From contig NZ_CP093312.1 in assembly GCF_023213175.1 (NCBI RefSeq), forward strand, positions 1,116,001 to 1,180,000: a stretch of 64,000 bases of DNA, in the 5' to 3' direction. Source of the stretch: Sulfurovum sp. XGS-02 (GTDB lineage: Bacteria > Campylobacterota > Campylobacteria > Campylobacterales > Sulfurovaceae). Below, piece after piece: positions 6,824 to 41,188 of the stretch (within the stretch, counting starts at the first letter, position 1; each line of letters starts with the position of its first letter). The notes beneath the pieces are model-generated. The model ran no database searches and had not been told where the DNA came from. It saw only the letters and a program-made list of their open reading frames with translations. Both the position numbers and the translations under genes were made by a program.

Positions 6824-6849
6824 GCACTTTCCAATTCAAGCAACTGTGA

Positions 6850-8049
6850 TCACTCCTCTTCGTACTTGAAAAGCCATTTAAGTAAAAATGGCGGGGCAAT
6901 AGTTGTTACAATGATAACAAAGATCAAAACGGCATAGATCTCATCACCCAGTATGCCGTTTACACGCCCTACTTCAGCAAATATGAGCCCAACTTCTCCA
7001 CGTGGTATCATAGAGATACCGATCAATGCTTTTTTCAATGCACCTGTGTCTCTGAGTAAAAAAGCACCTATATACTTTCCAATAATCGCGATCACCAGGA
7101 AAACAAATGCTAAACTCCAAAACGTTATAGAGGTAAAGTCAATCACTTTTAAGTTCATCGATAACCCTACCATCACAAAAAAGATAGGCGTAAACATCTG
7201 TGCGATAGGCGTTATGGCCTTTTTTACTTTCTCTAAAAATACTTCATCATGTTGTAACCCCATTCCAAAGGGAAGTATGAAACGTCTTGAAAGTGCTATT
7301 CCCGCAGCAAATGAACCTAAAATTTCAGGCGCACCGAAAAGATGTGACATATAAGCAAAAATAGCTATCAGTGAAATGATGATCGTAGGTATGAACCCAG
7401 GCACTTTTTTATGTTCATCAAATTTTCTCATAAAATGAGAGATAAAATGTGCAAAGGCAGGAGCCAGTAAAAAAAATAATAAGATAAATACCGTTGTATT
7501 CAATGTATTTGTTAGACTTAATGTTTGTGTGATCGCATAGTCGTAGATAAAAACAAGAACTATTACACCTAATATATCGTCGAGTACTGCCGCACCAATG
7601 ACGATCTGGGCAACTTCAGAATGTTCTTTTTTAAGATCTTTCAGTACCCTCATCGTGATCCCTATACTCGTCGCTGTCAGTGTACCTCCAATAAAGAGTG
7701 AGACAACCAGTGTCAAACCAAATAGATAGTAGGCAACGAAGGCGGAAACAGTAAAGGGAAACACTGCACCAAACAGTGCAACAATGATCGCTTTGCCACC
7801 TGCTTGCTTAAGACGTGCGATATCAGTATCCAACCCAATTTCAAAAAGCAGAAGAAGAATACCGATCTCAGCCAGTATTTTGAGTACATCGTTCACCTCT
7901 ACAAGACCAAAACCTGAGACACCCAGAAGTATACCTGCACTCAATTCACCCAGTACAGAAGGTATGCCCAATCGGGCAAAGAGTTCACCCAGGATCCTTG
8001 CCGTGACCAATATTAAGAAAAGTATGAGAAAAAAATTATGTACATCCAT
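6850..8049 (-). CDS. Cation:proton antiporter, CPA2 family
   Basis: A 399-residue hydrophobic protein with about 12 membrane helices, matching the Na+/H+ exchanger domain of CPA2 (KefB/RosB/NapA-like). Visible family features are FARLGIPSVLGELSAGILLG near the N-terminus, LLLFEIGLDTD near residue 70 and ATSIGITMRVL near residue 125. It lacks the C-terminal TrkA/RCK domains of Kef systems, so it is probably a simple Na+ or K+/H+ antiporter for pH and salt homeostasis. It converges on the PiT gene with a 26-bp gap. Confidence 0.88.
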   Translation of the reverse strand: MDVHNFFLILFLILVTARILGELFARLGIPSVLGELSAGILLGVSGFGLVEVNDVLKILAEIGILLLLFEIGLDTDIARLKQAGGKAIIVALFGAVFPFTVSAFVAYYLFGLTLVVSLFIGGTLTATSIGITMRVLKDLKKEHSEVAQIVIGAAVLDDILGVIVLVFIYDYAITQTLSLTNTLNTTVFILLFFLLAPAFAHFISHFMRKFDEHKKVPGFIPTIIISLIAIFAYMSHLFGAPEILGSFAAGIALSRRFILPFGMGLQHDEVFLEKVKKAITPIAQMFTPIFFVMVGLSMNLKVIDFTSITFWSLAFVFLVIAIIGKYIGAFLLRDTGALKKALIGISMIPRGEVGLIFAEVGRVNGILGDEIYAVLIFVIIVTTIAPPFLLKWLFKYEEE

Positions 8050-8128
8050 ACTTTATTGTACAGAAAATAATATAAAATCGATACCATTAAGAGTACATCG
8101 TGTGAATAAAGAGCAAATCTCAATAAGG

Positions 8129-8134
8129 TATAAT
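8129..8134 (+). promoter_or_regulatory. -10 box upstream of the DUF2459 gene
   Basis: TATAAT lies 35 bp before the ATG at 8169, in the divergent gap between the antiporter gene and the lipoprotein gene. Confidence 0.5.
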
Positions 8135-8168
8135 AGTGTTTTAATGAAAGGGTTTAAAAAGGTCTCTT

Positions 8169-8828
8169 ATGGTGTGTAACTACTATCTACATAACATACT
8201 GACAAGCTTGATAGTTTTGTCTGTTACTCTCTTGACCGGTTGCACTAAACCTATCAGCGAATTTTATCCACCCGATCCGGATCGTACTGATAACACAACA
8301 GTTTATGTTGTCAATCATGGGTTGCATACAGGTATTGTATTGCCTCATGAGGATGCAACCCCTTATATGTCTGCATTCGATGATTTTAAAACTGCTCGAT
8401 ATTTAGAGATAGGCTGGGGAGATGAGACCTATTATCAAACGGATCCAAATACGCTTTGGATGGGTATAAAAGCACTCTTTTGGCCTACGGATTCGGTGAT
8501 CCATGTCGCTGCATTCCAGACAGATCCCGTAACCTATTTTCCCAACAAAGAGGTAGTCCCGTTAAAACTTTCCCATGCAGGTTTTATCAGAATGGTAAAA
8601 GTCATCCATAATAGTTTTGCATTGAACCAACAAGGACAGCCTATCAAATTGGGAAAAGGGCTATACGGCACAAGTAAATTCTATCGTGCAAAAGGATCGT
8701 TCCATCTGTTCAATAATTGTAATGTATGGAGTGCAAGAGCAATCCGTTCCTCCGGCTTCCCGATAAACATATTTTCTGTATTTACATCTGATAACATCAT
8801 CTATCAATTAAAAGAGCATAAAAATTAG
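8169..8828 (+). CDS. DUF2459 (TIGR02117-type) lipoprotein
   Basis: A 219-residue exported protein with a lipobox (LLTGC, Cys about 25) after a hydrophobic signal. Characteristic parts are TVYVVNHGLHTGIVLP, LEIGWGDETYY and FHLFNNCNVWSARAI, which match the DUF2459 family as I know it. Conserved His and Cys in these blocks suggest a hydrolase-like (NlpC/P60-related) fold, but no function is established. The ribosome site AAAAAGG is 6 nt before the ATG. It converges on the next gene with a 22-bp gap. Confidence 0.75.
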   Translation: MVCNYYLHNILTSLIVLSVTLLTGCTKPISEFYPPDPDRTDNTTVYVVNHGLHTGIVLPHEDATPYMSAFDDFKTARYLEIGWGDETYYQTDPNTLWMGIKALFWPTDSVIHVAAFQTDPVTYFPNKEVVPLKLSHAGFIRMVKVIHNSFALNQQGQPIKLGKGLYGTSKFYRAKGSFHLFNNCNVWSARAIRSSGFPINIFSVFTSDNIIYQLKEHKN

Positions 8829-8850
8829 TCGTACTTATATGTCTACTTTT

Positions 8851-10197
8851 TCATAAACTGTCCGGGATCTCACAGGTAATCTTTTCATCACCGACTATCT
8901 CAGCAAGTTCAGTACTCTCTACTATCTCTTGTTCAATAAGCTTAAGTGCCAACGTTTCTATCTTCTCCCAATGCGCATCAACCAATTGTTCACTATATTG
9001 TTTTGCTACATGCATCCAATGTAAAAACCTTTTTTCTATTTGTTGCTCCAGGAAGTAATTATCTAATGCATTGATCGCATTGAGGTTTATATAGCCCAGT
9101 TCTTTATCCATCCCCAAGGTTGTAATGGCAGCATAGGCTTGTAAAGAGGCTTGTGAGAGATCGTTTTGTGCGCCGCTGTCCATCTGATCATCCCCTAGTT
9201 TTTTTACTTTTGCTGTACGTCCGGAGAGTAGCACACAAATATCATGGAAAAGGTCGATCTTCGAGATATTGGACAACTGGTCTTCCTCATTGTATGAGAC
9301 AAAACCAAGCATCTTGCTTCGCGGAGAGATGGTCACCTGCTCAATTTTGATATGGGGCAAAAGTAGTACTGAAAGGACTGCATGTGCTGCTTCATGATAA
9401 GCTGTCATTTTGAGTTCTTTCTCAAGTGTTTCAACCATTTGCTTTTCAACTTTATGCCCATACTTGATGATATTGATCTGTTCAATGAGTATCTCTTCTG
9501 TAATATGCTTTTTGTCCTGTTCTACTACGCTCAGAGCTGCCATACGCCCTATTCTTTCAAGTTCCAGGGCACTCATACCGGTGATATAGCGCACTATTCG
9601 TTCGATATCTATATTAGGATCATGAGGTTTTTCCATGATCTTTTCTATGAAAAACCTTCTTGCATCCTTGTCCAGCTCCAAAACCTCCAACAAAAAATCA
9701 AGCTTTTGCGGTGAAGTGAGTATAGGATCGATCTCATCAAGGCTCTCCGCTGTTGCAAAAGTAAAAACACGCTCATCTGCAGACTCCATGATCTTGGCAA
9801 TATCTGAAAAGGAGACATTGGTGATCGCACCCTGCACAATGCCTTTTATATCAATATCTTCCAGTATCACGGTGCAGGGAGCATTTTTGGAAGCAATATC
9901 GTATACCTCTTTGATATACTCCAGTTCAAAAAGTTTTGAACCTGATATCTCAAGATAAGAGACTCCTGCCTCTTTTGAAAATCCTTTTGCAAGCATACTC
10001 TTCCCAACACTTACGGGACCATAGAGCAGCAGACCTTTAGGAACGGGAGTATCAAATCGTTCAAGCATTTTCGGATTTTTAATGATCTTAATAATACCCT
10101 TCAGACGCTCTTTGATATGCTTGTGCCCTACAATATCATCAAATCCGATTTTGGATTTCTTTATTTTCGGTGTATCTTTTGTTTTTTTTGTTGCCAT
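8851..10197 (-). CDS. Soluble FtsH-like AAA/M41 metalloprotease with degenerate ATPase motifs
   Basis: A 448-residue protein with an AAA domain (about 18-240) followed by an M41 zinc-peptidase domain. The peptidase site is intact: HEAAH at 268-272, and the third ligand Asp346 in QNDL. The ATPase site is altered: Walker A is GPVSVGKS (60-67) instead of GPPGTGKT, Walker B has ED (113-114) where FtsH has DE, and the arginine-finger region reads DPILTSPQKLDF, lacking the usual R-x-x-R arginines. There is no N-terminal membrane segment, unlike FtsH (about 640 residues). It is probably a second, divergent FtsH homologue; the altered motifs suggest weak or no autonomous ATP hydrolysis. This is inference. 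Confidence 0.85.
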   Translation of the reverse strand: MATKKTKDTPKIKKSKIGFDDIVGHKHIKERLKGIIKIIKNPKMLERFDTPVPKGLLLYGPVSVGKSMLAKGFSKEAGVSYLEISGSKLFELEYIKEVYDIASKNAPCTVILEDIDIKGIVQGAITNVSFSDIAKIMESADERVFTFATAESLDEIDPILTSPQKLDFLLEVLELDKDARRFFIEKIMEKPHDPNIDIERIVRYITGMSALELERIGRMAALSVVEQDKKHITEEILIEQINIIKYGHKVEKQMVETLEKELKMTAYHEAAHAVLSVLLLPHIKIEQVTISPRSKMLGFVSYNEEDQLSNISKIDLFHDICVLLSGRTAKVKKLGDDQMDSGAQNDLSQASLQAYAAITTLGMDKELGYINLNAINALDNYFLEQQIEKRFLHWMHVAKQYSEQLVDAHWEKIETLALKLIEQEIVESTELAEIVGDEKITCEIPDSL

Positions 10198-10300
10198 TTC
10201 TAACCTTTGTACACTCTATATCATCTAATTCTATCATAACTCTTTGTGCAAAGCATATATTTTGTGTAGGACTGTACTATTCCGTAGTATAGAGTTTGGC

Positions 10301-10306
10301 TATAAT
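10301..10306 (+). promoter_or_regulatory. -10 box of upp
   Basis: TATAAT at 10301-10306 lies 27 bp before the upp start; the transcript would begin near 10313 and include the ribosome site AAAGGA. Confidence 0.55.
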
Positions 10307-10332
10307 AAAGTATTGAAAGTGAAAGGACTGTT

Positions 10333-10956
10333 ATGATCTATGAACTCTCCAACCCTGTTGCAAAAACCTTATTGAACCATTTACGAGAAAAGAAAGCAGA
10401 TGCATTGCGTTTTCGGCATATTATTCAAGAGTTATCTCGACTTCTTGTCTACGAAGCCCTGAAAAATGAGACACTCTATGATCAAACTATCACGACATGG
10501 CAAGGTGAGGAGACATTTGGATTTATTAAGGAAGAAGATATCATATTTGTCACTATTTTGCGTGCCGGTCTTCCTATGATAGAATCTGTCACAGCACTAT
10601 TTCCAAAAGCATCTTCCGGGTTTCTGGCCATGAAACGCGATGAAGATACCCACCAGAGTATTCTTTACTATGACCGTATCCCTGAGTGTGCAGGCAAAAC
10701 TGTGATTATCGTTGATCCTATGGTAGCGACCGCAGGATCTCTCTGTGATGCGATATCCGTTATTGAAGGGAAATCGCCAAAAAAAATCATATCGCTCAAC
10801 ATCATAGGGTCTCCAGAAGGAATGGCCATACTGGACCATAAACATCCAAATGTAGATGTATTTATCACACAGATCGATGATAAACTTGATGAACATAAAT
10901 TTATTATACCTGGATTAGGAGATGCCGGTGATCGTTCCTATAATACATTAGAGTAA
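10333..10956 (+). CDS. upp: Uracil phosphoribosyltransferase
   Basis: Salvages uracil to UMP with PRPP in the cytosol. The 207-residue length and motifs fit the family: VTILRAGLPMIESV (substrate loop), the PRPP-binding loop VIIVDPMVATAGS (family form DPMLATGGS), and the C-terminal uracil-binding stretch IPGLGDAGDRSYNT (family form PGLGDAGDR). AAAGGACTG provides a ribosome site 5' of the ATG. It stands alone with its own promoter; no terminator is evident after it. Confidence 0.95.
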   Translation: MIYELSNPVAKTLLNHLREKKADALRFRHIIQELSRLLVYEALKNETLYDQTITTWQGEETFGFIKEEDIIFVTILRAGLPMIESVTALFPKASSGFLAMKRDEDTHQSILYYDRIPECAGKTVIIVDPMVATAGSLCDAISVIEGKSPKKIISLNIIGSPEGMAILDHKHPNVDVFITQIDDKLDEHKFIIPGLGDAGDRSYNTLE

Positions 10957-11162: not shown

Positions 11163-12368
11163 ATGGAAAGAAGAGACTTCTTTAAAAAAGCTATTGTAAC
11201 TGCTGGTGCAGCAGCTGTAGGAACTAGTACACTAGATGCTGGGGAAACAACTCAACCGATTGATAATAGAGAAGTATCAAAGGTTGCTTTTCCTGAAAAA
11301 AGACCACTGATCATGTATTCTGACAGACCTCCTTTGTTAGAAACACCTAGAGAGGTATTTACCTCTGCACTTACGCCAAATGACCAGTTCTTTGTACGTT
11401 GGCATATGCCGGATATCCCGACACATATCGATCCGGATACCTATACTATCCATATCAACGGACTTGTAGAGAAAGAACTTCATATCTCACTGAATGACCT
11501 TAAAACAAAATTTGAACAGGTAGAAGTAACAGCTGTTCTTCAATGTGGTGGTAACAGCCGTTCTGCATTTAAACCGATCGCCGGCGGTATCCAGTGGGGT
11601 TCAGGTGCTATGGGATGTGCAACATGGAAAGGTGTTCGTTTAAGTGATATTCTTGACCAGGCAGGACTCAAAAAAGATGCAAAGTGGATAGGATTTAATG
11701 GTTCAGAAAGAGCTGCTTACTATGAAACACCTGAGTTTGTACGTGAACTTGAACTAAGTGAACTTGATGACCATGTTATCTTGGCATATGAAATGAATGG
11801 TGAAGATCTGCCGTACCTCAATGGTTATCCTCTTAGACTTGTACTGCCGGGATACTACTCTGACTCATGGGTAAAAATGCTTTCAAATATCACCGTGACT
11901 AATGAGTACAAGAAGCTCTTCTTTATGGATGTTGCCTATCGTGTACCTGATAATGCGACGGAATCAGAGACTCCGGAAAAAAGATACCCTACGACAAAAC
12001 CTATCAAAAAGATGAATGTGAAGTCTGTCATTGGTTATCCGACTAGAGACTCTATTTTATCTCACAACTCTCATGTTGTCATTCGTGGTGTAGCATGGGA
12101 TGATGGACATGGTATACAAGATGTACTTATTTCAACGGATGGTGGAAAAACATGGGATAAAGCTATTCTTGATGATGGTAAACTTGGGCGTTATGCATAT
12201 AGAGCATTTAGATTCGCATATAAACCAAACACATTTGGGAAAGTCACTATTATGGCTAAAGCGATCAACAAGATAGGTGATGAACAACCATTTGCAAAAG
12301 ATATCAAATGGAATCATGGTGGATATAAATATAATGGTATCGATGAAGTTACCGTAGAAGTTGTATAA
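11163..12368 (+). CDS. sorA: Sulfite:cytochrome c oxidoreductase, molybdopterin subunit
   Basis: Oxidises sulfite to sulfate in the periplasm and passes electrons to the cytochrome encoded next. The 401-residue protein begins with a twin-arginine signal (RRDFFKK then a hydrophobic stretch). The oxidoreductase molybdopterin domain carries the Mo-binding Cys128 in VLQCGGNSR, with further substrate-pocket residues in YYSDSWVKML. A C-terminal Mo-co dimerisation domain follows (about 285-400). The arrangement with a monoheme cytochrome matches Campylobacter jejuni Cj0005c/Cj0004c. SoxC is the alternative, but no soxD-like or sox gene is nearby. Confidence 0.9.
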   Translation: MERRDFFKKAIVTAGAAAVGTSTLDAGETTQPIDNREVSKVAFPEKRPLIMYSDRPPLLETPREVFTSALTPNDQFFVRWHMPDIPTHIDPDTYTIHINGLVEKELHISLNDLKTKFEQVEVTAVLQCGGNSRSAFKPIAGGIQWGSGAMGCATWKGVRLSDILDQAGLKKDAKWIGFNGSERAAYYETPEFVRELELSELDDHVILAYEMNGEDLPYLNGYPLRLVLPGYYSDSWVKMLSNITVTNEYKKLFFMDVAYRVPDNATESETPEKRYPTTKPIKKMNVKSVIGYPTRDSILSHNSHVVIRGVAWDDGHGIQDVLISTDGGKTWDKAILDDGKLGRYAYRAFRFAYKPNTFGKVTIMAKAINKIGDEQPFAKDIKWNHGGYKYNGIDEVTVEVV

Positions 12369-12378
12369 GGAATTGGAC

Positions 12379-12687
12379 ATGAAAAAATTATTATTAATAG
12401 CAATGCTTATTGCTACACCACTTTTTGCTCAAGTGAAAGAAAAAGTAGAGGTTCCTTATGTACCTTTTCCTATAAAAATGGGTAAAGGTTTTGACGCGGT
12501 ACAAGCGAATTGTCTTACTTGTCACTCTTTTGGATACATGATCAACAGCGGGAAACAGTCTAAAGCATTCTGGCGTGGGAAAGTTGACAAAATGATCGTA
12601 CACTTTAAGGCACCTATTACTGATAAAGATGCAGATATTATTACTAACTACTTTTTTGAACACTACGGAAACGGAAAGCTAAAATAA
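12379..12687 (+). CDS. sorB: Monoheme c-type cytochrome, sulfite dehydrogenase subunit
   Basis: A 102-residue exported cytochrome: an N-terminal signal peptide ending at about LFA-Q21, then one heme site CLTCH near residues 49-53 and a methionine soon after (SFGYMI) as a likely axial ligand. It should accept electrons from SorA and feed the respiratory chain. The start was set at 12379 because AAGGA precedes it and the signal peptide then begins properly; an upstream TTG at 12361 overlaps sorA and is unlikely. The gap from sorA is 10 bp, so the two are one operon. Confidence 0.88.
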   Translation: MKKLLLIAMLIATPLFAQVKEKVEVPYVPFPIKMGKGFDAVQANCLTCHSFGYMINSGKQSKAFWRGKVDKMIVHFKAPITDKDADIITNYFFEHYGNGKLK

Positions 12688-31294: not shown

Positions 31295-31726
31295 TTACGA
31301 TATGATCATAAACACAGAACAGAAGTTATAAAACATGTGCAGGAATATACTAGGCACTATGTTATTATACTGATCTTTAAAATACCCAAAGATCAAAGAA
31401 GGCACAAATACCAACAGTGCCCAAACAGGTGTATGATGTACAAAATGTATCAAAACAAAAAGTACTGATGTCATTATATTAGCCACTGTCAAAAAGAAAA
31501 TGGAAGGGTATTGTTCCGTTTTTGAAGCGATATACTCCTGTATTACCCCACGAAAAGCCAACTCCTCGATCACCGGATAAAATACGATAAGAAAAAAAAG
31601 AGAGTTTGTATCGGAAAATAATCGTTCTATATCAACTGATTGATGTTGAAAAATGTAGTTATAGAAAAGAACAAAAAGAGGAGCAGCTAGAATAGCTGCT
31701 CCATATTGTATATGTGTTTTATTCAC
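31295..31726 (-). CDS. CPBP-family intramembrane protease (MrtJ-like sortase candidate)
   Basis: A 143-residue membrane protein with about four helices and the glutamic-type (CPBP/Abi) protease motifs: EELAFRG at 54-60 (EExxxR), His94 in VLIHFVHH, and His130 with Asn134 in LHMFYN. It is short for CPBP proteins (often 200 or more). It lies 8 bp downstream of, and in the same direction as, a secreted protein with a C-terminal GGGGC-helix-RRR tail. Short glutamic-type proteases next to one such substrate are known in MrtJ/JDVT-CTERM systems, so cleavage of that tail is the likely role (inference). Confidence 0.82.
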   Translation of the reverse strand: MNKTHIQYGAAILAAPLFVLFYNYIFQHQSVDIERLFSDTNSLFFLIVFYPVIEELAFRGVIQEYIASKTEQYPSIFFLTVANIMTSVLFVLIHFVHHTPVWALLVFVPSLIFGYFKDQYNNIVPSIFLHMFYNFCSVFMIIS

Positions 31727-31734
31727 GGAGAAGA

Positions 31735-33621
31735 CTATTTGATAAATCTTCTTCTGAATGGATAGAATAATCCAAGAGCCATCATTACTAAGAACATCAT
31801 ATCAAAGTGCTTGCTGTCAGGGTTGTATGTACAACCTCCACCACCGCTGCTTGGAACTAGATCTGGATCTGTAACTGGTGGTGTAACAATTCCATCTGTT
31901 GCTGTAGTTTCTGCAGTGAGTCCTTTATAGGTAGCTGTTACAACAGTTCCATTCACCACATTAACGATTGTATCCTGTGTAGCAACAGTATTTGTATCAG
32001 TCGCTATAGTTCCCACATATATAGAACTGTTAACATCCGTTTCTGTCAGTGTAAGGTTTTCTTCATCACCATTACTTGCTGTAAGTACAACTATTACTTC
32101 ATCGATTACACTATCAGTCGCCCCTGTCACATTAGTATCTGCTACACCCACAGATAGGTTAGTATCTAGATTAAAATACGGTGCCGGACTGATAACAAGA
32201 TGTGTATCTGTACCATTATAATCTGTCGATGGCATAATATACGTTACATTATCATCCATAATATAATTAGGAGCTGTCTGATCTGCTGCAACACGTGGTG
32301 TAATACGTATAGTAAATGTATCACCTATATTAGAATTTTTCCCAACATTCACAATATAATTTAACCCTAAGTTAAGTGTATCTTCAATATTTCCTTGTGC
32401 ATACAATGGATCAGTCATCCAAGTCAGTAACTCCTCCGGTGAAGGCTCAGCCCAACTATTAGCATCATTTACGTAATCCTTACCCTTATGCCATGCAGGA
32501 GCTGTACCTTCAGGTGCATTTGGTACTGTACCCCAGAACGCTACAAGTTCTGCATCAGTAGTTGGATCATTGTCATCATCAAAGAATATACCGATTGGCT
32601 GCCATTTGGAAGGTAACCACATACCAAAGAGTGCTTCATAATTACTGCCCAGTGTATCAGGCCCACCTACGAGTTCTGGTGTTCCATGTCCTGACTCAGC
32701 AACAACAAAACCTGCTCTTTTTGAATCAAAGAAACCATCTGTAGGAAAATGTGGCTCTGGTTCTTCGTATGTTTTAGGTCCCCATAGGCCATGAGAAAAG
32801 TTTGCCATATCCTCCACATCCCAAATATTTACATCACCTGTTGCTTTAGGATTTTCAAGAAGTCCAATAGAAAGTGTAAGATCGTCAGGTTTTACTGTTC
32901 CATTCTCATCTAATACTTCGATCTTATATCCCTCTAATCTCTTGCCAGTATAGTTATTGATCTTTTGGAAAACTTGATATCTAGTATTTTCAGTACTTTC
33001 ATCAGTTGGATCAAGATTAAATACAAGCTCTACAGGCTTTCCATATCCAGTGGTAGTATTATGATCTACAACCGTATTTTCAGTCATATTGACCTTGAAA
33101 CGTTTATGTGTCTGGAATGGACTTGAACATGTTGTAGGTGCTGGTGTATCACTGTCAAGATATCCATTTATCCCTCCATTATCTTCTGCTGCCAAGTATG
33201 AAGTTGTCATGATACAATTTTCAGGTTTTCCATTGTGTGTATTCAAATCACCATTGATAATTTTGATACCTGTGGGTTCACCTACCGGCCAGTCTTTCCC
33301 ATGAAGCTTACCTCTCTCTTCACCACCAACACTAATTATAGATTCAAAAGACATTGTATCATCCATTGTCGGATAACTGCCATCCGTACTCGTAGGATCA
33401 GGGAAAATATCACCATAAATAATATTACTAAAGTTTTGATCACTTGTAATATTCACAACTACATTCTCTAAGTTCCATCCACCAAAACCATACTGGGTCA
33501 ATTCATTCCAACCTTGTGTATCAGTATCTGTAATGATCTTCCCTGCATATGCACTTGAGCTAAGCAGCATTGCTGCCGCAGCACTCATACCTAAAATTTT
33601 ATTTTTATAGTTTTTTTTCAT
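31735..33621 (-). CDS. Secreted protein with C-terminal sorting signal (JDVT-CTERM-like)
   Basis: A 628-residue exported protein. The signal peptide ends near AYA-G27. The N-terminal half contains FGGWNLENVVVNI and LHGKDWPVGEPTGIKI, which recall choice-of-anchor proteins; a beta-rich Thr/Asn/Val domain follows (about 480-585). The tail is a cell-surface sorting signal: GGGGC at 593-597, NPDSKHFD, a hydrophobic helix (about 606-622) and RRRF at 623-626. The helix is led by FDMM, in the place where JDVT-CTERM tails have their conserved Asp. Cleavage is presumably done by the adjacent CPBP protease; Cys597 may be lipidated or otherwise modified (inference). GGAGGAG precedes the start. Confidence 0.85.
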   Translation of the reverse strand: MKKNYKNKILGMSAAAAMLLSSSAYAGKIITDTDTQGWNELTQYGFGGWNLENVVVNITSDQNFSNIIYGDIFPDPTSTDGSYPTMDDTMSFESIISVGGEERGKLHGKDWPVGEPTGIKIINGDLNTHNGKPENCIMTTSYLAAEDNGGINGYLDSDTPAPTTCSSPFQTHKRFKVNMTENTVVDHNTTTGYGKPVELVFNLDPTDESTENTRYQVFQKINNYTGKRLEGYKIEVLDENGTVKPDDLTLSIGLLENPKATGDVNIWDVEDMANFSHGLWGPKTYEEPEPHFPTDGFFDSKRAGFVVAESGHGTPELVGGPDTLGSNYEALFGMWLPSKWQPIGIFFDDDNDPTTDAELVAFWGTVPNAPEGTAPAWHKGKDYVNDANSWAEPSPEELLTWMTDPLYAQGNIEDTLNLGLNYIVNVGKNSNIGDTFTIRITPRVAADQTAPNYIMDDNVTYIMPSTDYNGTDTHLVISPAPYFNLDTNLSVGVADTNVTGATDSVIDEVIVVLTASNGDEENLTLTETDVNSSIYVGTIATDTNTVATQDTIVNVVNGTVVTATYKGLTAETTATDGIVTPPVTDPDLVPSSGGGGCTYNPDSKHFDMMFLVMMALGLFYPFRRRFIK

Positions 33622-33702: not shown

Positions 33703-35001
33703 TTAAAACAGCATATTGAAACTGATCAGGAAGTCCCTATAGTCTTCTATATCTGATCTTGACGGTTTAGCCCAGCTATGCTCTACCGAAAGCTTCATAG
33801 GCAGGTAGTACTTGAACGAGTAGTCCATACCCACAGTGATGGCATGATCCAGATCTTGCACATTGACCTTCTTCAGTTCACCCTTTCCACCATCCGCATA
33901 ATCATAACGATCATTCATTGTAAGATAAGAGAGTTTCACACCAAAATCCGGGGTAAGGTTCACTTCTCCTCCTACAGAGAATGCTTCATTATCTAGGTTA
34001 TCAACGTCACTGGTTGAGCCCGCACCCATCCCTGTGTAAGTTACTTCATTTTTAAAGACCTTGCTCATCGTCAAAGTAGCACTTTTATCACCGATGTAAC
34101 CTTCAACCATGAAATCCATTCCATACGTTTTACGCTCTATGCTGAGAGAACTTGTAGCATCTACCGTATCTCCACCGTTCATGACAAATCCGCCCAGTAT
34201 AAGGTTATAAGCTCCTAGAGGGTATTCGTAGGCGATTCTGGTAAAAGGGATCAGGTTGCTTGTAAGCTCCAGTTGATTATTGTCCTGGCCTTGAGCATAC
34301 ATACCTACGGTTGCAAACAGATGATCGCCACCGATCAATGCACTATCTATGTCATAGTAAACCTGCAGTCCTGTTGCCGCACCAGAACCTATCCCCGTTG
34401 CCTGGAGTGCATTGGAGAGTCTTCTTATATCAAACGTTCTAAACGGTTTGTAGAGACCCGAGTTGTAAATTTCCATACCTGAGAATGGGCCAAAGTCAGC
34501 GGTAGAATATGCTGCCAATCCCATATATCCATCTTGTATCTCTTCGGCATAGACCATTTTCCCGGAAATGGCATTGTCCCTTTGCGCTTTATAAGAAAGG
34601 TTGACAAGGGCCCCAAGTTTGTTCGTTAACCTTCCCCCTACATAGAGTGCAGCGGTTCTAGGTACAGATAAGATACCGTCATTGGTCACGATCGTATCTT
34701 TGACCTTTCCTGATTTACCCGGTTTATTGTCTGTTTTTTCATAGATGGACTTGAACATCACCGATGGATTGATGTCCGAACCGCTGCTGTTCGCATCTGT
34801 AAATTTTTGGCTCATAGTCATACCTGAAGCCAAAAATTTTCTACCGAACTTGTTGAGCCTTTCTATATGCTGTATATGACATGCAGTACAGTCCATCCCT
34901 GTCTGTGTAGCAAACAGAGGCAAAGCTTTTACTTCACTTGTCAAACTGATGAATCCAAGTATACCCACTGCTACTAAACTATGTCTATTTATTTTTATCA
35001 T
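33703..35001 (-). CDS. Outer-membrane fused cytochrome-porin (Cyc2-like), copy 1
   Basis: A 432-residue exported protein. After a signal peptide (cleavage near VKA-L28) comes LFATQTGMDCTACH with one heme c site, then LNKFGRKFLASGMTM, then a beta-barrel of alternating aromatic and polar strands that ends in Phe (SFNMLF), the usual outer-membrane assembly signal. This layout, one N-terminal heme fused to a porin of about 400 residues, is that of Cyc2-type proteins, which carry electrons across the outer membrane in Fe(II) oxidisers. Its donor or acceptor here is unknown. GGGAGG lies before the ATG. It is paralogous to the gene at 35544. Confidence 0.8.
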   Translation of the reverse strand: MIKINRHSLVAVGILGFISLTSEVKALPLFATQTGMDCTACHIQHIERLNKFGRKFLASGMTMSQKFTDANSSGSDINPSVMFKSIYEKTDNKPGKSGKVKDTIVTNDGILSVPRTAALYVGGRLTNKLGALVNLSYKAQRDNAISGKMVYAEEIQDGYMGLAAYSTADFGPFSGMEIYNSGLYKPFRTFDIRRLSNALQATGIGSGAATGLQVYYDIDSALIGGDHLFATVGMYAQGQDNNQLELTSNLIPFTRIAYEYPLGAYNLILGGFVMNGGDTVDATSSLSIERKTYGMDFMVEGYIGDKSATLTMSKVFKNEVTYTGMGAGSTSDVDNLDNEAFSVGGEVNLTPDFGVKLSYLTMNDRYDYADGGKGELKKVNVQDLDHAITVGMDYSFKYYLPMKLSVEHSWAKPSRSDIEDYRDFLISFNMLF

Positions 35002-35100
35002 TCTTCCTCCCTTTATAAATAGCCTTGTACTATCTATAAAATTCTAGCACACTGTTACAAATAAGCAAGACAGATTACCTGAATCCAAATGATATAAATA

Positions 35101-35106
35101 TATAAT
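35101..35106 (+). promoter_or_regulatory. -10 box of the 35135 cytochrome gene
   Basis: TATAAT 28 bp before the ATG, in the divergent gap with the first cytochrome-porin gene. Confidence 0.5.
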
Positions 35107-35134
35107 AAACCTAATTTAGTTAAAAAGGAATAGT

Positions 35135-35443
35135 ATGAGATTCATAAAAACAGGCGTATCACTTTTAGCAGTAAGTGTTCTTTCTGCATCACCTGCACAG
35201 AATATCTATGTGCAAAAGTGTGCAAGCTGTCACGGTGCAAACGGAGATATGAAAGCTATGGGAACTTCTAGGTCGATCAAAGAGATGCCGGTCGAAGAGA
35301 TAGAAAAAGCGCTCATAAACTATGCATCAGGAGAAAGGAAAGCGATGCCTTTTGTTAAAAGTGTAAAAAAAGATTTTATGAACAAATATACCAAAGAAGA
35401 GGTGCATGGGCTTGCTAACTATATTCATGGGCTGAATAAGTAG
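35135..35443 (+). CDS. Small periplasmic monoheme cytochrome c (class I), copy 1
   Basis: A 102-residue protein with a signal peptide (cleavage near SAS-P), heme site CASCHG near residues 29-34 and a helix-rich body ending in YTKEEVHGLANYIHGLNK, the typical C-terminal helix of c553/c5-like cytochromes. The axial methionine is probably the Met in RKAMPFVK. It lies between the two outer-membrane cytochrome-porin genes, on the opposite strand, and could shuttle electrons to or from them. A paralogue lies at 39864. GGAATAG is the ribosome site. Confidence 0.88.
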   Translation: MRFIKTGVSLLAVSVLSASPAQNIYVQKCASCHGANGDMKAMGTSRSIKEMPVEEIEKALINYASGERKAMPFVKSVKKDFMNKYTKEEVHGLANYIHGLNK

Positions 35444-35456
35444 CTATTTTAGGAGT

Positions 35457-35484
35457 AAGGGTACTGTAAGTCACAGATACCCTT
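35457..35484. terminator. Hairpin after the cytochrome gene
   Basis: AAGGGTA (35457-35463) pairs perfectly with TACCCTT (35478-35484) around 14 nt. A T6 run comes 12 nt later, so it is only a moderate terminator candidate for the cytochrome gene. Confidence 0.45.
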
Positions 35485-35500
35485 CATATATAGTACTTTT

Positions 35501-35539
35501 TTAGTGGTGACCTCGGCCACCATCTCTTTGTCCACCCAT
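35501..35539 (-). other. 12-codon Gly/Arg/His-rich open frame, possible gene remnant
   Basis: Just beyond the end of the second cytochrome-porin gene the minus strand has ATG at 35539 and a stop at 35501, encoding MGGQRDGGRGHH. The frame is also open upstream but overlaps the porin gene and shows nothing there. The end closely resembles the tails GGGGRH and GGGGRR of the two small exported proteins at 37086 and 37442. It may be the leftover 3' end of a related gene removed by a deletion or duplication. Confidence 0.35.
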
Positions 35540-35543
35540 CGCT

Positions 35544-36833
35544 CTAGAATGGCAAAGTAAGTGTCGTCATAAAACTCTGATAATTTTCAACTCTATCCAG
35601 TGATGGGTTCATCCATGCATACTCAACCGCAAGTTTCATATCTTTATTGATCAGATTAAATCCATAATCCAAACCTACATTGATAGCAGAGTCAAGGTCT
35701 TTTGCATTAATTTTCAATGGTCTAGAATTTTTTCCAGTATACCGATAGTCAAACTCATCATTATATGTCATATAGCCTACTTTTGTAACAATGGTCGGCG
35801 TAATACTAATAGCTCCTTCTACAGAGAATGCCGAATTATAACTATCTTCCGTGTCAGAGTCATCTGATTGTGCACCAATACCGGTAAATTCAATTTTATT
35901 TTTAAGAATATTTGTCACTGTCAAAGAGGCTTCTCTATCTGCTATATCACCTTCTATCTGTATATCGAAACCATATGTTTCTCTTTTCATACTAAGTGTC
36001 TCAGTATCTGTAACAGTGTCTCCACCCGATATGATAAATGCGCCCAACATAACGTTATAGTCTCCTATAGGATGTTCATACGCTATTCTTGCAAAGGGTA
36101 AGATATTATCATTCATATCTATGTATGCATTATCTTGTGTAGGTGTGTAAATACCCGCAGTGATAAAAAAGTGGTCTCCACTATTTAGAAGATTATCTCT
36201 ATCATAATATAGTTGTAACCCTGTTGCACCTTTTGAATAGGCTTTCGTCGTTTGAGCTGCATTGCTATAGACCTTATTGTCAAACATCCTTAGAGGTTTG
36301 TACAAACCTGTATTATAGAATTCCATTCCTGAGAATGGTCCCTGACTGTTATTTGAATATGCTGTAATACCCCAATACCCATCTTCTACAGCATTGGCAT
36401 AGGTCACTCTTCCTGAGATCGACCTACCCTCGTGTTGTCTATAACCTAGATTAAGTGTACCACCTATGTTCTCTGTCAATCGACCACCTAGATAAATCGT
36501 TGCCATACGTATATGTGAAAAATCACCATCATTGGTATCACCTTCTTTAATAGCACCTTTTCCATCCGGTTTATCCCATGTTTTCGCATATTTAGATTTG
36601 ATCAAGACTGATGGATTAATATCCATATTTTCAACTTGTTGGCTCATCGTCATACCCGATGCGGCAAATTTTCTACCAAACTTATTCAGTCTTGGCATGA
36701 TCTGTGTATGACATCCTGTACAGTCCATACCTGTTTGTGTCGTGAACATTGGTAATGCTTTTGCTTCTTGTGTCAGACCTGCAAATGTCAGTAATCCCGC
36801 TAGCGCAACCTGATACCCTTTTATTTTCTTCAT
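35544..36833 (-). CDS. Outer-membrane fused cytochrome-porin (Cyc2-like), copy 2
   Basis: A 429-residue paralogue of the protein at 33703. It has a signal peptide (ending near AKA-L), the heme segment FTTQTGMDCTGCH, then LNKFGRKFAASGMTMSQ, and a beta-barrel ending in Phe (TLTLPF). The shared core includes GPFSGMEFYNTGLYKPLR and INPSVLIKSK. The start at 36833 has a strong GGGAGG with 8-nt spacing; an in-frame codon at 36863 would add ten unlikely residues. Two copies may serve different redox partners or conditions. Confidence 0.8.
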   Translation of the reverse strand: MKKIKGYQVALAGLLTFAGLTQEAKALPMFTTQTGMDCTGCHTQIMPRLNKFGRKFAASGMTMSQQVENMDINPSVLIKSKYAKTWDKPDGKGAIKEGDTNDGDFSHIRMATIYLGGRLTENIGGTLNLGYRQHEGRSISGRVTYANAVEDGYWGITAYSNNSQGPFSGMEFYNTGLYKPLRMFDNKVYSNAAQTTKAYSKGATGLQLYYDRDNLLNSGDHFFITAGIYTPTQDNAYIDMNDNILPFARIAYEHPIGDYNVMLGAFIISGGDTVTDTETLSMKRETYGFDIQIEGDIADREASLTVTNILKNKIEFTGIGAQSDDSDTEDSYNSAFSVEGAISITPTIVTKVGYMTYNDEFDYRYTGKNSRPLKINAKDLDSAINVGLDYGFNLINKDMKLAVEYAWMNPSLDRVENYQSFMTTLTLPF

Positions 36834-37046
36834 TCTGTTTGCCTCCCTATAGAATAAATACATTTTAACTATAGCATGTATCTAAAATACAAATCAAGAA
36901 AAGTGTATAAATTGTACGCAAAAAGGTTCAAGCATGGATATATGTAACTACTTTATCGGTTATAGTAATTTGTCTTTTATAGATGAGAGTTTTCAGTAAA
37001 TTGATTGGTAAAAGAGTATGCATGCATGATGTAGAGTGCATTTTTG

Positions 37047-37085: not shown

Positions 37086-37358
37086 TTAGTGACGACCGCC
37101 CCCACCGCTTCTTTGGCCAGAAGATGATCTCATGCCTGATCTGTTTGAATTGGTACCATTATATCTGTATTGGTTCTGATACTGGTATTTATATTGATTT
37201 TTATCTCTACTGCCTGTACCGTCTTTTAGCCTTTTTTGGTATTTCTGTTGAAGCTGTTGTTCCATACGAAGATGCTCTTGAAGTGTATCTTGCGCTGCAA
37301 ATAGTGAAGGAGAAGCAAGCAGTGCTATTGTACTTAATATACGTAAACTCTTTGTCAT
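37086..37358 (-). CDS. Small exported protein with Gly-rich basic tail, copy 1
   Basis: A 90-residue protein: signal peptide (cleavage near LFA-A), a Gln/Lys/Leu helical part (LQEHLRMEQQLQQKYQKRL), a Tyr/Gln/Asn-rich stretch of alternating YQ units, and the tail SGQRSGGGGRH. The mature protein is strongly basic and probably disordered in its second half. I do not recognise a family. The next gene on the same strand encodes a protein with a similar tail. A partial response-regulator-type repeat lies 38 bp upstream of its start. Confidence 0.7.
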   Translation of the reverse strand: MTKSLRILSTIALLASPSLFAAQDTLQEHLRMEQQLQQKYQKRLKDGTGSRDKNQYKYQYQNQYRYNGTNSNRSGMRSSSGQRSGGGGRH

Positions 37359-37441: not shown

Positions 37442-37837
37442 CTATCTTCTACCTCCGCCGCCGCTTCCTCCACCTTGACCTGCTCCGCCACCCATGGATC
37501 CGCCCATGCCTGCATTTCCGCCGTATCCGCTCATGAAGTTCCCCTGTGCCGAACCGTCATTGAATTTGAATTTGAACCTGGATCTGTTGTCATAATCATA
37601 ACTTTCTGATTTCTTTTCGGCCACAGCCTTATTTCCAGATTCTATATCATTTGATTTATATTCATCTTTAAATATAAAGCGTTTCTTATTTTTAGACGGT
37701 TTCTTTTGAGGCTCAGGTTTAGTCAGTGCTTTCTTCTGCCCAGCTTCTTGAAGGATATTACCTAATCCTTTCTGCTCTGCATGAAGTGACATGGTGCCAA
37801 ATATACAAAGTGTAGGAAGTAAATATTTACATTTCAT
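37442..37837 (-). CDS. Small exported protein with Gly-rich basic tail, copy 2
   Basis: A 131-residue protein. The signal peptide (MKCKYLLPTLCIFGTMSLHA) is followed by a Lys/Pro-rich segment, a charged aromatic part (YDYDNRSRFKFKF) and a Gly/Met-rich tail ending SGGGGRR. The start at 37837 gives a proper signal peptide; the open frame upstream to 38014 runs into the regulator gene and its first 59 residues are unlikely. It is divergent from the response regulator gene and has the best copy of the repeat operator in front of its -10 box. Confidence 0.72.
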   Translation of the reverse strand: MKCKYLLPTLCIFGTMSLHAEQKGLGNILQEAGQKKALTKPEPQKKPSKNKKRFIFKDEYKSNDIESGNKAVAEKKSESYDYDNRSRFKFKFNDGSAQGNFMSGYGGNAGMGGSMGGGAGQGGGSGGGGRR

Positions 37838-37864
37838 TATTCGCACCTTTCTCAATTTTTGTTT

Positions 37865-37946: not shown

Positions 37947-38624
37947 ATGAAAATATTATTATTGGAAGATGATATAGGTTTGGCAGATATCATGTCAGAG
38001 TACCTTGAAGACAATGATTTTGAGCTTGACCTTGTCTATGATGGAGAGGAAGCCCTAGATAAAGCCTATGAAACACAGTATGATCTCTATATCTTCGATG
38101 TCAATGTGCCTGCGATCAAAGGTTTTGATCTATTGAAAACATTGCGGGACAATGGTGATGCGACCCCTACGATATTTGTGACATCACTCAATGACATAGA
38201 GGATGTATCACAAGGCTTTGAAAGCGGTGCAGATGATTACCTCAAAAAACCTTTTGAACTTGCGGAACTTCTTTTACGTATTAAAAACATTCAGAAGCGT
38301 TCTTTTGCACAAAAACGTTCTACCCTGATACAGATAGATAAAGATATCACTTTTGATATAGATACTGAATTACTCCATACAAACGGAGAGAGTGTTTCTC
38401 TGCCGCAAAAAGAACTTAAACTGCTCAAGCACTTTTTGAAACATCCCAATGAGGTCGTCACATTTGAAAGTCTTTATGATGTACTATGGGATTATGATGA
38501 AACAGCCTCAGCTGAATCTCTAAGAGCACATATCAAAAACCTTAGAAAGCATCTTACAAAAGATATGATACAGAATCTAAGAGGTCTAGGTTACAGATTT
38601 GAAATGGAAACCTCGGACCGATGA
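37947..38624 (+). CDS. OmpR-type response regulator
   Basis: A 225-residue cytosolic regulator: receiver domain (1-120) with acidic pair Glu7-Asp8-Asp9, phosphoacceptor Asp51 in IFDVNVPAIKG, and the conserved Lys near 101 in DYLKKPFE, followed by a winged-helix DNA-binding domain (about 130-225) ending in RGLGYRFE. It overlaps the sensor kinase gene by 4 bp (ATGA). Its likely targets are the 11-bp repeats at 37875 and 41235. Confidence 0.93.
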   Translation: MKILLLEDDIGLADIMSEYLEDNDFELDLVYDGEEALDKAYETQYDLYIFDVNVPAIKGFDLLKTLRDNGDATPTIFVTSLNDIEDVSQGFESGADDYLKKPFELAELLLRIKNIQKRSFAQKRSTLIQIDKDITFDIDTELLHTNGESVSLPQKELKLLKHFLKHPNEVVTFESLYDVLWDYDETASAESLRAHIKNLRKHLTKDMIQNLRGLGYRFEMETSDR

Positions 38625-39775
38625 AGGCCAGTACCAAAAGTGTCATTATTTTCATGGTGGTCTACCTGGGGTCACTCAGTATTTTAGCCACATGGGTAGG
38701 TTATCTTTATTATATAGACCAAAAGAATGCTTTGATCGAGAAGATGCATTTGGAAATGAGATACAAAGCAAGAAGTATTAATGCACAGTTGGAATACTAC
38801 CATATGAACAAAAGCGAACAGTTCACTTTTTATGAAGAGGGGTACGATATCGCACTCTATGATAACAAAAGAGAACTGCTCGCTTCTACATTTATGGATG
38901 ATATTGATTTTACCAAACTCTTTTATGCCAATGATGAGGAGTACTATCTTGTAGAGACACTCTACAAAGAATATCTTGATGTGAAATACATAGTGATCAA
39001 AAAACCTCTTGATGTACAAAAGTTAAATGAGATCATTGAAGAGATCACTCGCATAGCATTTTATGGGTTTGTTTTTATACTTTTTGTCGCACTGCTCTTG
39101 GCCAAGATCATGTTGTCTCCGATCAAAAGATCCATCGCCTCTCTCACCAAATTCATGAAAGATGCCACACATGAGATGAATACACCTATCAGTACGATAC
39201 TGATGAGCTACGAACATATGGATAAACACAATCTCAATACAAAACAGCTTCGCTCACTTGATCGTATAGATATAGCAACCAAAACACTCTCCAGTCTTTA
39301 CAGAGACCTCTCTTTTGCTTCTTTCCATGACTATATAGAGTATGAAGACACACCCATAGATGTAATAGATGTTGTGCTTGAAAGAATCAAATATATGGAT
39401 ACACTCATACAATTCAAAGGCTTAAAGGTGAACACGCTCTTAAAGCCCAAGACGATCAGTATGGATAAGCGAAAACTGATATTACTGATAGATAACCTAC
39501 TCTCAAATGCGATAAAATTCTCCAAAAAAAATGGTGAGATCCAAGTGAATTTGACAGAGCAATACTTTTCTGTAAAAGACAATGGTATCGGCATTTCAAA
39601 AGAAGATCAAAAAAGTATCTTTGATCGTTTTAAATCCACGAACAGTTTACATGGAGGATTTGGTGTAGGACTGGATATAGTGAATCAGATCTGTAAAGAG
39701 TACGATATAAAGATCGAACTGGAATCAGAGCCGTCTAAAGGGAGTGAATTTAAATTAATCTGGTCAACAAAATAA
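38621..39775 (+). CDS. Sensor histidine kinase
   Basis: A 384-residue inner-membrane kinase: membrane helix 1 (about 8-30), a small periplasmic sensing region of about 110 residues, helix 2 (145-165), then the HisKA motif with His184 in ATHEMNTP, and the ATP-binding domain with the N box (LIDNLLSNAIKFSK), G1 (VKDNGIGIS) and G2 (GGFGVGLDIV). The stimulus is unknown; the neighbourhood suggests a redox or metal signal at the envelope. It is coupled to the regulator by a 4-bp overlap. Confidence 0.92.
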   Translation: MKASTKSVIIFMVVYLGSLSILATWVGYLYYIDQKNALIEKMHLEMRYKARSINAQLEYYHMNKSEQFTFYEEGYDIALYDNKRELLASTFMDDIDFTKLFYANDEEYYLVETLYKEYLDVKYIVIKKPLDVQKLNEIIEEITRIAFYGFVFILFVALLLAKIMLSPIKRSIASLTKFMKDATHEMNTPISTILMSYEHMDKHNLNTKQLRSLDRIDIATKTLSSLYRDLSFASFHDYIEYEDTPIDVIDVVLERIKYMDTLIQFKGLKVNTLLKPKTISMDKRKLILLIDNLLSNAIKFSKKNGEIQVNLTEQYFSVKDNGIGISKEDQKSIFDRFKSTNSLHGGFGVGLDIVNQICKEYDIKIELESEPSKGSEFKLIWSTK

Positions 39776-39863: not shown

Positions 39864-40166
39864 ATGAGTTTAATGAGAATTGTGTTACCGGTACTTTCTA
39901 CAAGTATGCTAATGGCAGCATCAGGTGAGTCGATCTATCAAACAAAATGTGCAAGCTGTCATGGTAAAATGGCAGAAAAGAAAGCTTTGGGACACTCAAA
40001 TGTTATCAAAGGTATGCCAGTTGATCAATTTGTCAAACTTACAAAAGCATTTGCAACAGGTGAGAAAAAAGCTATACCTATCGCTAAAATTGTTAAAAAG
40101 CAATTCATTGATGGATATAGTGATGAAGAGATACGATCAGTTGCTGAATATGTCAATAAATTATAG
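39864..40166 (+). CDS. Small periplasmic monoheme cytochrome c, copy 2
   Basis: A 100-residue paralogue of the cytochrome at 35135: signal peptide (ending near MAA-S), heme site CASCHG near residue 31, and the C-terminal helix YSDEEIRSVAEYVNKL. In the position where copy 1 has KAMPFVK, this one has KAIPIAK, so the expected axial methionine is missing; another Met (GMPVDQ) might serve instead. GAGGAG is the ribosome site. It lies 88 bp after the kinase gene in the same direction. Confidence 0.87.
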   Translation: MSLMRIVLPVLSTSMLMAASGESIYQTKCASCHGKMAEKKALGHSNVIKGMPVDQFVKLTKAFATGEKKAIPIAKIVKKQFIDGYSDEEIRSVAEYVNKL

Positions 40167-40189: not shown

Positions 40190-40612
40190 TTAATTAACTT
40201 TACGGCCTGCGTAGTAGTTTATTTTCCATCCATCTTTTTCTTTTGAAAAGTAGAGTTTCTTTATTTTCCCATCTTCTGTGTAGTCAATTGTCTGTCTTTT
40301 TTCTCCGTTCCATGATACAGACTTTATATCTATTTCAGGAGAGTTCTTTCTAGCAATGAGGTCGTAGGAAAGCTTGGTTTCAACCACTGCTAACGCATCT
40401 TCATCTTCTTTTATATTTTTCAGCAGTGCCTTGAACTCTTGGTCTCTCAACGATAATCTTAAGCCGAATGTTTCCAGAGTCATACTATACGACTCTGTTG
40501 TCATCAACTCTTTGACCGTGCTAAGATCACCGCTATACAGTGAAGTATAGTAAAGCGCAAGTATATCACTAGGCTCTAACAATGAAAAAGTACTGCTTCT
40601 ATTTTTGAGCAT
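40190..40612 (-). CDS. Hypothetical protein, NTF2-like (DUF4878-type) pattern
   Basis: A 140-residue protein without a clear signal peptide. It begins with a helix pattern DILALYYTSLYSGDLSTVKELMT and ends in a beta-sheet with KKLYFSKEKDGWKINYYAG, which resembles SnoaL/NTF2-like lipoprotein domains (DUF4878). It lies 6 bp after the DUF2202 gene on the same strand and is presumably co-transcribed with it. The function is unknown. Confidence 0.68.
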   Translation of the reverse strand: MLKNRSSTFSLLEPSDILALYYTSLYSGDLSTVKELMTTESYSMTLETFGLRLSLRDQEFKALLKNIKEDEDALAVVETKLSYDLIARKNSPEIDIKSVSWNGEKRQTIDYTEDGKIKKLYFSKEKDGWKINYYAGRKVN

Positions 40613-40618
40613 AATAAA

Positions 40619-41188
40619 TTATGCTCTTTCGATCGCAGTCTGAAATGCATCAAGGTGACTTAAACTACCCTCTTTCAGGCTTTCAAATACAGCTACAACA
40701 TCTTCTGGCATACCTTCAGATGCATGCTCCAGGTCTTCAATGTCAGTGTATTCGATCAATTCACCTATTTTCAGTGCATCAAGAAGTGATTTTTCACCTT
40801 CACCCACACAAGTATCATAAAGTTCTTGCAGTACCGGTAATACAAAGCTTCCTACTGCATCTTCATCTACCCCTGAAGTGTCCACACCGTATTTTTCACA
40901 CAATTCTTTTGCAGAATCCATATGTCTCTGTTCCGATATCTGAATAGAAGCAAATGTATTTTCATCGGTATAGATGTTACCCAGGGTAATATATACATCT
41001 CTAGCTACTTTTTCTTCCTGGTAGATGTAGAAGAGCATATCTTTTTGATCTTCTGTTAATACTACAGTGGTATCTGTAGTTTCTTTTTTTGCATAGGCTG
41101 AAGATGAAAGCAATGCTACACCACTTGCTCCTGCAACCAATATTTTAGTTAAAAAACTTCTTCTATCTTTAATATTATTCGTATTCAT
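40619..41188 (-). CDS. Tat-exported DUF2202 ferritin-like protein
   Basis: A 189-residue protein with a twin-arginine signal (DRRSFLTK, then hydrophobic, cleavage near AYA-K). The mature part is DUF2202: LTEDQKDMLFYIYQEEKVARD, ISEQRHMDSA and EYTDIEDLEH, then LSHLDAF. Spaced Glu and His residues fit a four-helix ferritin-like fold that could hold a di-iron site. Folding before export by Tat suits a metal protein. An activator-type repeat promoter lies directly upstream, matching that of the 37442 gene. Confidence 0.85.
   Translation of the reverse strand: MNTNNIKDRRSFLTKILVAGASGVALLSSSAYAKKETTDTTVVLTEDQKDMLFYIYQEEKVARDVYITLGNIYTDENTFASIQISEQRHMDSAKELCEKYGVDTSGVDEDAVGSFVLPVLQELYDTCVGEGEKSLLDALKIGELIEYTDIEDLEHASEGMPEDVVAVFESLKEGSLSHLDAFQTAIERA

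Follow-up and report, generated by a model that had tools for sequence, protein, structure and literature searches.

The window, a 64,000-nucleotide stretch of the Sulfurovum sp. XGS-02 genome, encodes two neighbouring cytochrome-porins, A and B. A profile match, phylogeny and a predicted barrel support their membership of the monoheme cytochrome-porin superfamily of Cyc2, in which, judging from their sequences, they appear to belong to a separate Campylobacterota branch. The principal sequence result is that this branch has lost three otherwise conserved cytochrome-domain residues: the signature arginine, Lys57 and Tyr/Phe61. A and B are thus not Cyc2 in the strict published sense, but their function is probably alike. 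The explanation that we rank first, tentatively and just short of even confidence, is that both are outer-membrane conduits for electron uptake, with a small dissolved reductant (most likely Fe(II)) as donor and a small cytochrome c as recipient.

Both genes lie on the minus strand (Table 1), and the features claimed for them in the preliminary description are all present: the heme c motifs CTACH and CTGCH, a common segment FGRKF(L/A)ASGMTMSQ, a hydrophobic leader, a barrel-like body and a C-terminal phenylalanine, with one CxxCH in each protein just behind the predicted signal peptide. The full open reading frame (ORF) of B extends from 35544 to 36863 (439 residues), the likelier start being the methionine at 36833. 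A and B are 49% identical over 435 residues. Orthologues of A in two congeners are 83–85% identical to it, and the ratio of nonsynonymous to synonymous substitution rates between orthologues is 0.09–0.13; the genes are under purifying selection and are therefore not chance ORFs. The earlier wording of a tandem pair holds for two same-strand paralogues, but the 542 bp between them are occupied by a monoheme cytochrome c gene on the opposite strand, so that the two genes are neighbours but not a tandem pair in the strict sense. No further A/B-like protein was found by sequence and profile searches of the complete 2.19-Mb genome. The Campylobacterota host proposed earlier is borne out by close synteny with a record of Sulfurovum sp. 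AR (L039, one and the same locus as L121), which matches the region gene for gene, mostly at 82–97% identity.

Keffer and colleagues define Cyc2 by AXPXFAR[Q/K][T/Y] before CXXCH, PXL after it, a length of at least 365 residues and a 16-stranded OprO/OprP-like porin, and sequences without PXFAR[Q/K][T/Y] were discarded from the published Cyc2 tree (PMC8406198). A and B have the signal peptide (the leader judged from hydrophobicity), the single N-terminal CXXCH and the length (432 and 429 residues). The signature site, however, reads ALPLFATQT in A and ALPMFTTQT in B, with threonine in place of arginine in both, and the strict signature therefore fails. Four residues downstream of CXXCH, B has PRL and A has ERL (proline to glutamate), proline being kept in 12 of the 15 alignment rows of the clade to which A and B belong. 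The arginine is present in 0/15 of these rows versus 71/73 of the others; position 57 is alanine or leucine in 15/15 versus lysine in 70/73, and position 61 is methionine in 15/15 versus tyrosine or phenylalanine in 73/73, where the 15 rows form a single clade and hence are not independent observations. The three changes could alter the heme pocket, and Met61 could ligate the heme.

General family searches are largely silent. Pfam gives no family for either protein, and NCBIfam gives none above cut-off, its sole match (B to the LbtU porin) being weak and far under the cut-off; no clear match to an unrelated secreted family was thus found. A search of PDB sequences with A and B returned nothing meaningful. 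A profile built from other Cyc2-type proteins, with A and B left out (profile A2), retrieved B (E 1.6e-27) and A (E 6.2e-27) from the genome, and nothing else matched. Scanning one genome per species with the Sulfurovum relatives returned proteins of Gallionella and other Nitrosomonadales at E 1e-14 to 1e-20, together with many methylotroph and Burkholderiales proteins alike in the N-terminal part, and matches on plasmids were confined to the N-terminal part of proteobacterial cytochrome C proteins. Cyc2-type proteins occur in 42 of the 60 Gallionellaceae genomes surveyed, and those examined carry FARQTGMxCxxCHxQ..P.LN.FGR.FK with few exceptions. This type is taken as Cluster 1 because every Cyc2-bearing iron-oxidising member of the Gallionellaceae is reported to encode Cluster 1 Cyc2 (PMC10734462). 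Proteins with an NNNP motif had been considered as canonical Cyc2; the survey and the same report show that Cluster 1 is the other type, and that assignment was dropped.

AlphaFold2 predicts for B (40 alignment rows as input, protein chain without heme) two short helices around the heme motif followed by 16 strands, with a predicted local distance difference test score (pLDDT) of 82.8 and a predicted template modelling score (pTM) of 0.82. The 16-stranded barrel anticipated by the preliminary description is thus present in the model of B, and the prediction is extended to A on the basis of their sequence identity. The best solved matches are OprP (2o4v, Z 23.1, 3.6 Å over 316 residues), OprB and OprO, all at Z of about 23 and root mean square deviations of 3.6–3.7 Å. 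Since many other general porins fall no more than 2 Z units below the best match, the match shows a porin fold and not a function. OprO/OprP is also the published fold of Cyc2PV-1 (PMC8406198). A Gallionellaceae Cyc2 modelled in the same way (pLDDT 73.7, pTM 0.76) has approximately 16 strands when interrupted strands are counted as one on visual inspection, and its structural matches are porins of the same kinds.

The phylogeny places A and B in a clade of 15 rows from Sulfurovaceae and Sulfuricurvum-type bacteria, with a support of 100 in the Shimodaira–Hasegawa-like approximate likelihood ratio test (SH-aLRT), both in a 92-row tree and in a second tree with a simpler model and four long rows removed. 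Eight Sulfurimonadaceae sequences group with this clade (SH-aLRT 88 in the first tree and 92 in the second). The Gallionellaceae type forms a clade of 37 rows, including one Sulfurovum sequence (L009), with a support of 100 in both trees; A and B are outside it, and B is 21–25% identical to its members. The remaining Cyc2 types form a third clade (support 99 in the 92-row tree). Cluster placement was judged against the Gallionellaceae Cluster 1 set alone. The approximately unbiased (AU) test does not reject joining the clade of A and B to the Gallionellaceae type (p 0.158), so that this type may also be its sister group. The earlier label “Cyc2-like” accordingly stands at the level of the superfamily, while neither the strict signature nor a place in the Gallionellaceae (Cluster 1) clade is found.

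It follows from the same data that a plain Cluster 1 Cyc2, gained from iron oxidisers and ordinary in mechanism and origin, is an improbable description of A and B. Cluster 1 Cyc2 of Epsilonproteobacteria nested within Zetaproteobacteria has been reported (PMC12442345), and the AU test would allow the grouping; this reading nevertheless appears already weakened by the tree, in which the fully supported Gallionellaceae-type clade excludes both proteins, by the low identity of B and the missing arginine, and by L009, a Sulfurovum sequence that is truly inside that clade and is a different protein. The L009 sequence (946–2135, minus strand, in the Sulfurovum metagenome-assembled genome [MAG] G023) is a Cluster 1-like Cyc2 whose reading frame is interrupted by a TAG just before CxxCH, reflecting either a broken gene or a sequencing error. 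Separately, Campylobacterota proteins of 370–440 residues with one N-terminal heme motif (e.g., LARQYGMECSACHSQVPALN) were seen in L010 (613–1728, minus strand), L027 and L028; they sit on a very long branch of the tree and are assigned to no family.

Within their clade, A and B fall in separate sub-branches, and each sub-branch also holds single-copy relatives from other genomes; the two genes therefore did not arise by recent duplication. B and the second cytochrome c are absent from the syntenic loci L120 and L121, and among the 37 congeneric genomes searched, A and B occur together in the window genome only. CxxCH is retained in all relatives examined. Duplicates in such a genome had been called noteworthy, but adjacent pairs turn out to be less exceptional, and adjacent duplication was dropped as an unusual feature. 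Sulfurimonadaceae have head-to-tail pairs of related cytochrome-porins (L125, 8544–11231; L126, 8257–10950; L127, 9542–12237), in which the upstream copy is without the proline of PxL and the arginine of the signature varies by copy (FARQT, FSRQT, FSSQT, FAKQS). Two adjacent genes for Gallionellaceae-type Cyc2 occur in MAGs of Gallionella and other Nitrosomonadales (L043, L047, and L048, at about 6300–10900), and all six genomes checked have just two Cyc2-type profile matches each. Cyc2 in Campylobacterota is not new either: besides the nested Epsilonproteobacterial sequences cited above, one Sulfurovum MAG was called by FeGenie (WC3F.bin.9 in Table 2, assigned from column order; PMC12383625). 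For the clade without the arginine and for its locus, no description was found in the open-access papers searched, subscription papers not being covered.

A and B share with the Cluster 1 Cyc2 of Gallionellaceae, Zetaproteobacteria and Chlorobium (of which Cyc2PV-1 has been tested biochemically) the signal peptide, the single CxxCH, a length of approximately 430 residues, Q-T-G-M before CxxCH and CHxQ..(P)xLN.FGR.F..(S/A)G.T after it, the 16-stranded barrel and the C-terminal phenylalanine, and, with the Gallionellaceae, a barrel motif E..NTG; they differ in their separate clade, in the three lost residues and in a gene neighbourhood that is Campylobacterota-specific. The Cyc2-type proteins of Sulfurimonadaceae (L013–L020 and the pairs in L125–L127) have in common with A and B the phylum, K/R48, S59 and neighbouring genes for cytochrome c and DUF2202, but are only 26–33% identical to B; most retain the signature arginine, and the eight in the tree all retain Tyr/Phe61. 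Other Cyc2-type proteins, from methylotrophs, Burkholderiales and some Sulfurimonadaceae, have the cytochrome-porin plan and the N-terminal motif, but form a separate clade (support 99–100), many with the NNNP motif in the barrel, and their similarity is mostly N-terminal. MtoAB, MtrAB and PioAB would share the task of moving electrons across the outer membrane, but consist of two proteins, a porin of about 26 strands and a decaheme cytochrome, whereas A and B are each one protein with one heme; the separate multiheme cytochrome in a large porin that characterises MtoAB and MtrAB is not what is seen, each of A and B having a single CxxCH.

The neighbourhood was read by hand from the ORFs flanking the cytochrome-porin gene at 15 separate loci. 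In 12 of them, Sulfurimonadaceae among these, a gene for a small monoheme cytochrome c is no more than about 7 kb away; the exceptions are L038 and L040, where less than 3 kb of upstream sequence is available, and L036, whose genome carries the cytochrome on another contig, beside a DUF2202 gene. Strong homologues of the small cytochrome c (>65 bits) are found in 6/7 genomes with the clade versus 0/53 others (Fisher p 1.4e-7), which, because the genes are linked and the genomes related, reflects joint inheritance and not independent associations. The cyc2 gene of Acidithiobacillus and Ferrovum is directly followed by a cytochrome gene (PMC10879576), and a linked cytochrome c is therefore what a Cyc2-like role predicts.

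Under the electron-uptake explanation, A and B would be heme-plugged, 16-stranded porins, presumably in the outer membrane. A small dissolved reductant, most likely Fe(II), would enter the barrel from the cell exterior and reduce the protein's only heme, carried by the N-terminal plug at the periplasmic mouth; from there the electron would pass to the small monoheme cytochrome c encoded between A and B, the proposed periplasmic acceptor, and onward to a terminal oxidase, the metal remaining outside the cell. Two COX1-family (heme-copper oxidase) genes are present in the genome. Expression of the locus may be turned on by the two-component system nearby. The direction of electron flow, the identity of donor and acceptor, the regulation and the division of labour between A and B are what we infer here. 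Fe(II) is ranked as the likeliest donor since those superfamily members that have been tested were shown to use it (PMC8406198, PMC7029218).

Several observations weigh against electron uptake from Fe(II). The heme segment belongs to the least reliable regions of the model (pLDDT of about 46–89 over residues 21–60 of B), as it likewise is in the Gallionellaceae Cyc2 model. The loss of the arginine, lysine and Tyr/Phe in all 15 clade members would make the heme environment unlike that of the Cyc2s tested so far, so that a different donor is possible. The association with cytochrome c may reflect a locus inherited as one block, and the genes are patchy, the clade being found in 7 of the 37 congeneric genomes. 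Finally, the known energy metabolism of Sulfurovum is the oxidation of sulfur and hydrogen.

Other donors thus appear possible, given the altered cytochrome domain and a host that lives on sulfur. An uptake conduit for a donor other than Fe(II), such as reduced sulfur species or the soluble carrier of a partner, with the altered pocket tuning the heme potential, is a possible alternative that we consider distinctly less probable than Fe(II) uptake. The heme potential of Cyc2PV-1 is 208 mV. The three replacements throughout the clade, with an invariant methionine at the Tyr/Phe site, are in favour of this alternative, as is the reliance of Sulfurovum on sulfur compounds; in Sulfurovum indicum, how solid sulfur is handled at the outer membrane is unresolved (PMC10045233). 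The fold and the linkage to a small cytochrome, on the other hand, match the loci of iron oxidisers (PMC10879576). A more elaborate version is unlikely as a whole: a Campylobacterota class with a rebuilt Cyc2 heme pocket, in which the gained methionine may ligate the heme, a donor other than Fe(II), a cytochrome c of its own for each paralogue and an extracellular partner sorted by MrtJ.

Flow in the opposite direction, with Fe(III), manganese oxide, an electrode or a partner outside the cell receiving electrons from the conduit, seems quite improbable. Flow through outer-membrane conduits of the Mto/Mtr type can reverse (PMC10734462), and a manganese oxide-reducing Sulfurimonas is cited in PMC11748539; yet a solid acceptor would be almost out of reach of one heme placed at the periplasmic mouth, the Cyc2 family has been argued to use dissolved Fe2+ (PMC8406198), and no multiheme ORF, and so no multiheme partner, was found within the window, the rest of the genome not having been searched for multiheme proteins.

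Other genes that recur nearby encode the DUF2202 protein, the 140-residue protein, the OmpR-type regulator with its kinase, and a surface protein, which in some relatives is of the choice-of-anchor O type. The two-component genes near many loci, along with the OprP/OprB-type predicted barrel, would fit a redox-gated or heme-sensing porin, in which the heme controls solute passage or signals redox state to the two-component system with no net respiratory electron flow. We regard this as improbable, given that regulators commonly lie near transport genes, that the most constant partner is cytochrome c, and that two-component genes are absent from several loci, including all Sulfurimonadaceae loci with pairs. 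The upstream regions of A, B and the second cytochrome, aligned with those of two congeners, gave no convincing shared regulatory element, conservation being confined to the A orthologues.

The position of DUF2202 beside cytochrome-porin genes is suggestive: the DUF2202 and 140-residue genes also adjoin the Sulfurimonadaceae pairs, where the porins are only about 31–33% identical to those of the window. The presence of DUF2202 as a link to iron proved uninformative, as it is found in 31 of 60 relatives regardless of a cytochrome-porin, and a literature search found no paper on DUF2202. The JDVT-CTERM surface protein is seen beside the cytochrome-porin in many Sulfurovum loci (31295–33621 of the window with its protease, minus strand) and is possibly an extracellular partner of it; MrtJ is presumed to be the sorting enzyme of this adjoining protein. 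A second small glycine-rich secreted protein is encoded at 37442–37843 (minus strand); like the one in Table 1, it is conserved beside the two-component genes and has no Pfam family. Elsewhere in the window (11163–12684, plus strand), a protein with a leader resembling those of twin-arginine translocation (Tat) is followed by a small monoheme cytochrome c, a pair that is possibly sulfite-dehydrogenase-like.

Table 1. Features of the cytochrome-porin locus, in window positions.
Feature	Position	Strand	Evidence and remarks
MrtJ, intramembrane protease of the JDVT-CTERM system	31295–31726	−	NF033192, 107.8 bits (cut-off 75)
Choice-of-anchor F/JDVT-CTERM surface protein	31735–33621	−	NF033657, E 2.9e-57; NF033191, E 4.5e-13; directly downstream of A
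Paralogue A: signal peptide, one-heme N-terminal segment (CTACH), beta-barrel porin body, C-terminal Phe	33703–35001	−	432 residues
Heme c motif of A, CTACH	34876–34890	−	Residues 38–42; ALPLFATQTGMD before, IQHIERL after
Small secreted monoheme cytochrome c	35135–35443	+	PF13442/PF00034 above cut-off; divergent from A
Paralogue B: architecture as in A, predicted 16-stranded barrel	35544–36833	−	429 residues from the likely start
Heme c motif of B, CTGCH	36708–36722	−	Residues 38–42; ALPMFTTQTGMD before, TQIMPRL after (PxL present)
Small Gly-rich secreted protein	37086–37358	−	Conserved in congener loci
OmpR-type response regulator	37947–38624	+	PF00072, PF00486; adjoins the cytochrome-porin in several Sulfurovum loci
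Sensor histidine kinase, partner of the OmpR-type regulator	38621–39775	+	PF00512, PF02518
Second small monoheme cytochrome c, paralogous to the first	39864–40166	+	PF13442 above cut-off; synteny; absent from L120 and L121
140-residue protein travelling with the DUF2202 gene	40190–40612	−	No Pfam or NCBIfam match
DUF2202 protein with RR Tat-like leader	40619–41188	−	PF09968, E 4.1e-32; solved homologue MJ0754 (3q4n), E 3.5e-26

Sulfurovum and Sulfurimonas, which dominate among the chemolithoautotrophs of hydrothermal vents and sediments, are regarded as oxidisers of sulfur and hydrogen. If A and B do take up extracellular electrons, some of these bacteria would possess a further source of energy, one that can be overlooked in current surveys, since the published screen demands the FAR signature that has been lost in this branch. 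The branch is, in addition, a natural experiment on which heme-pocket residues are needed for Cyc2-type function.

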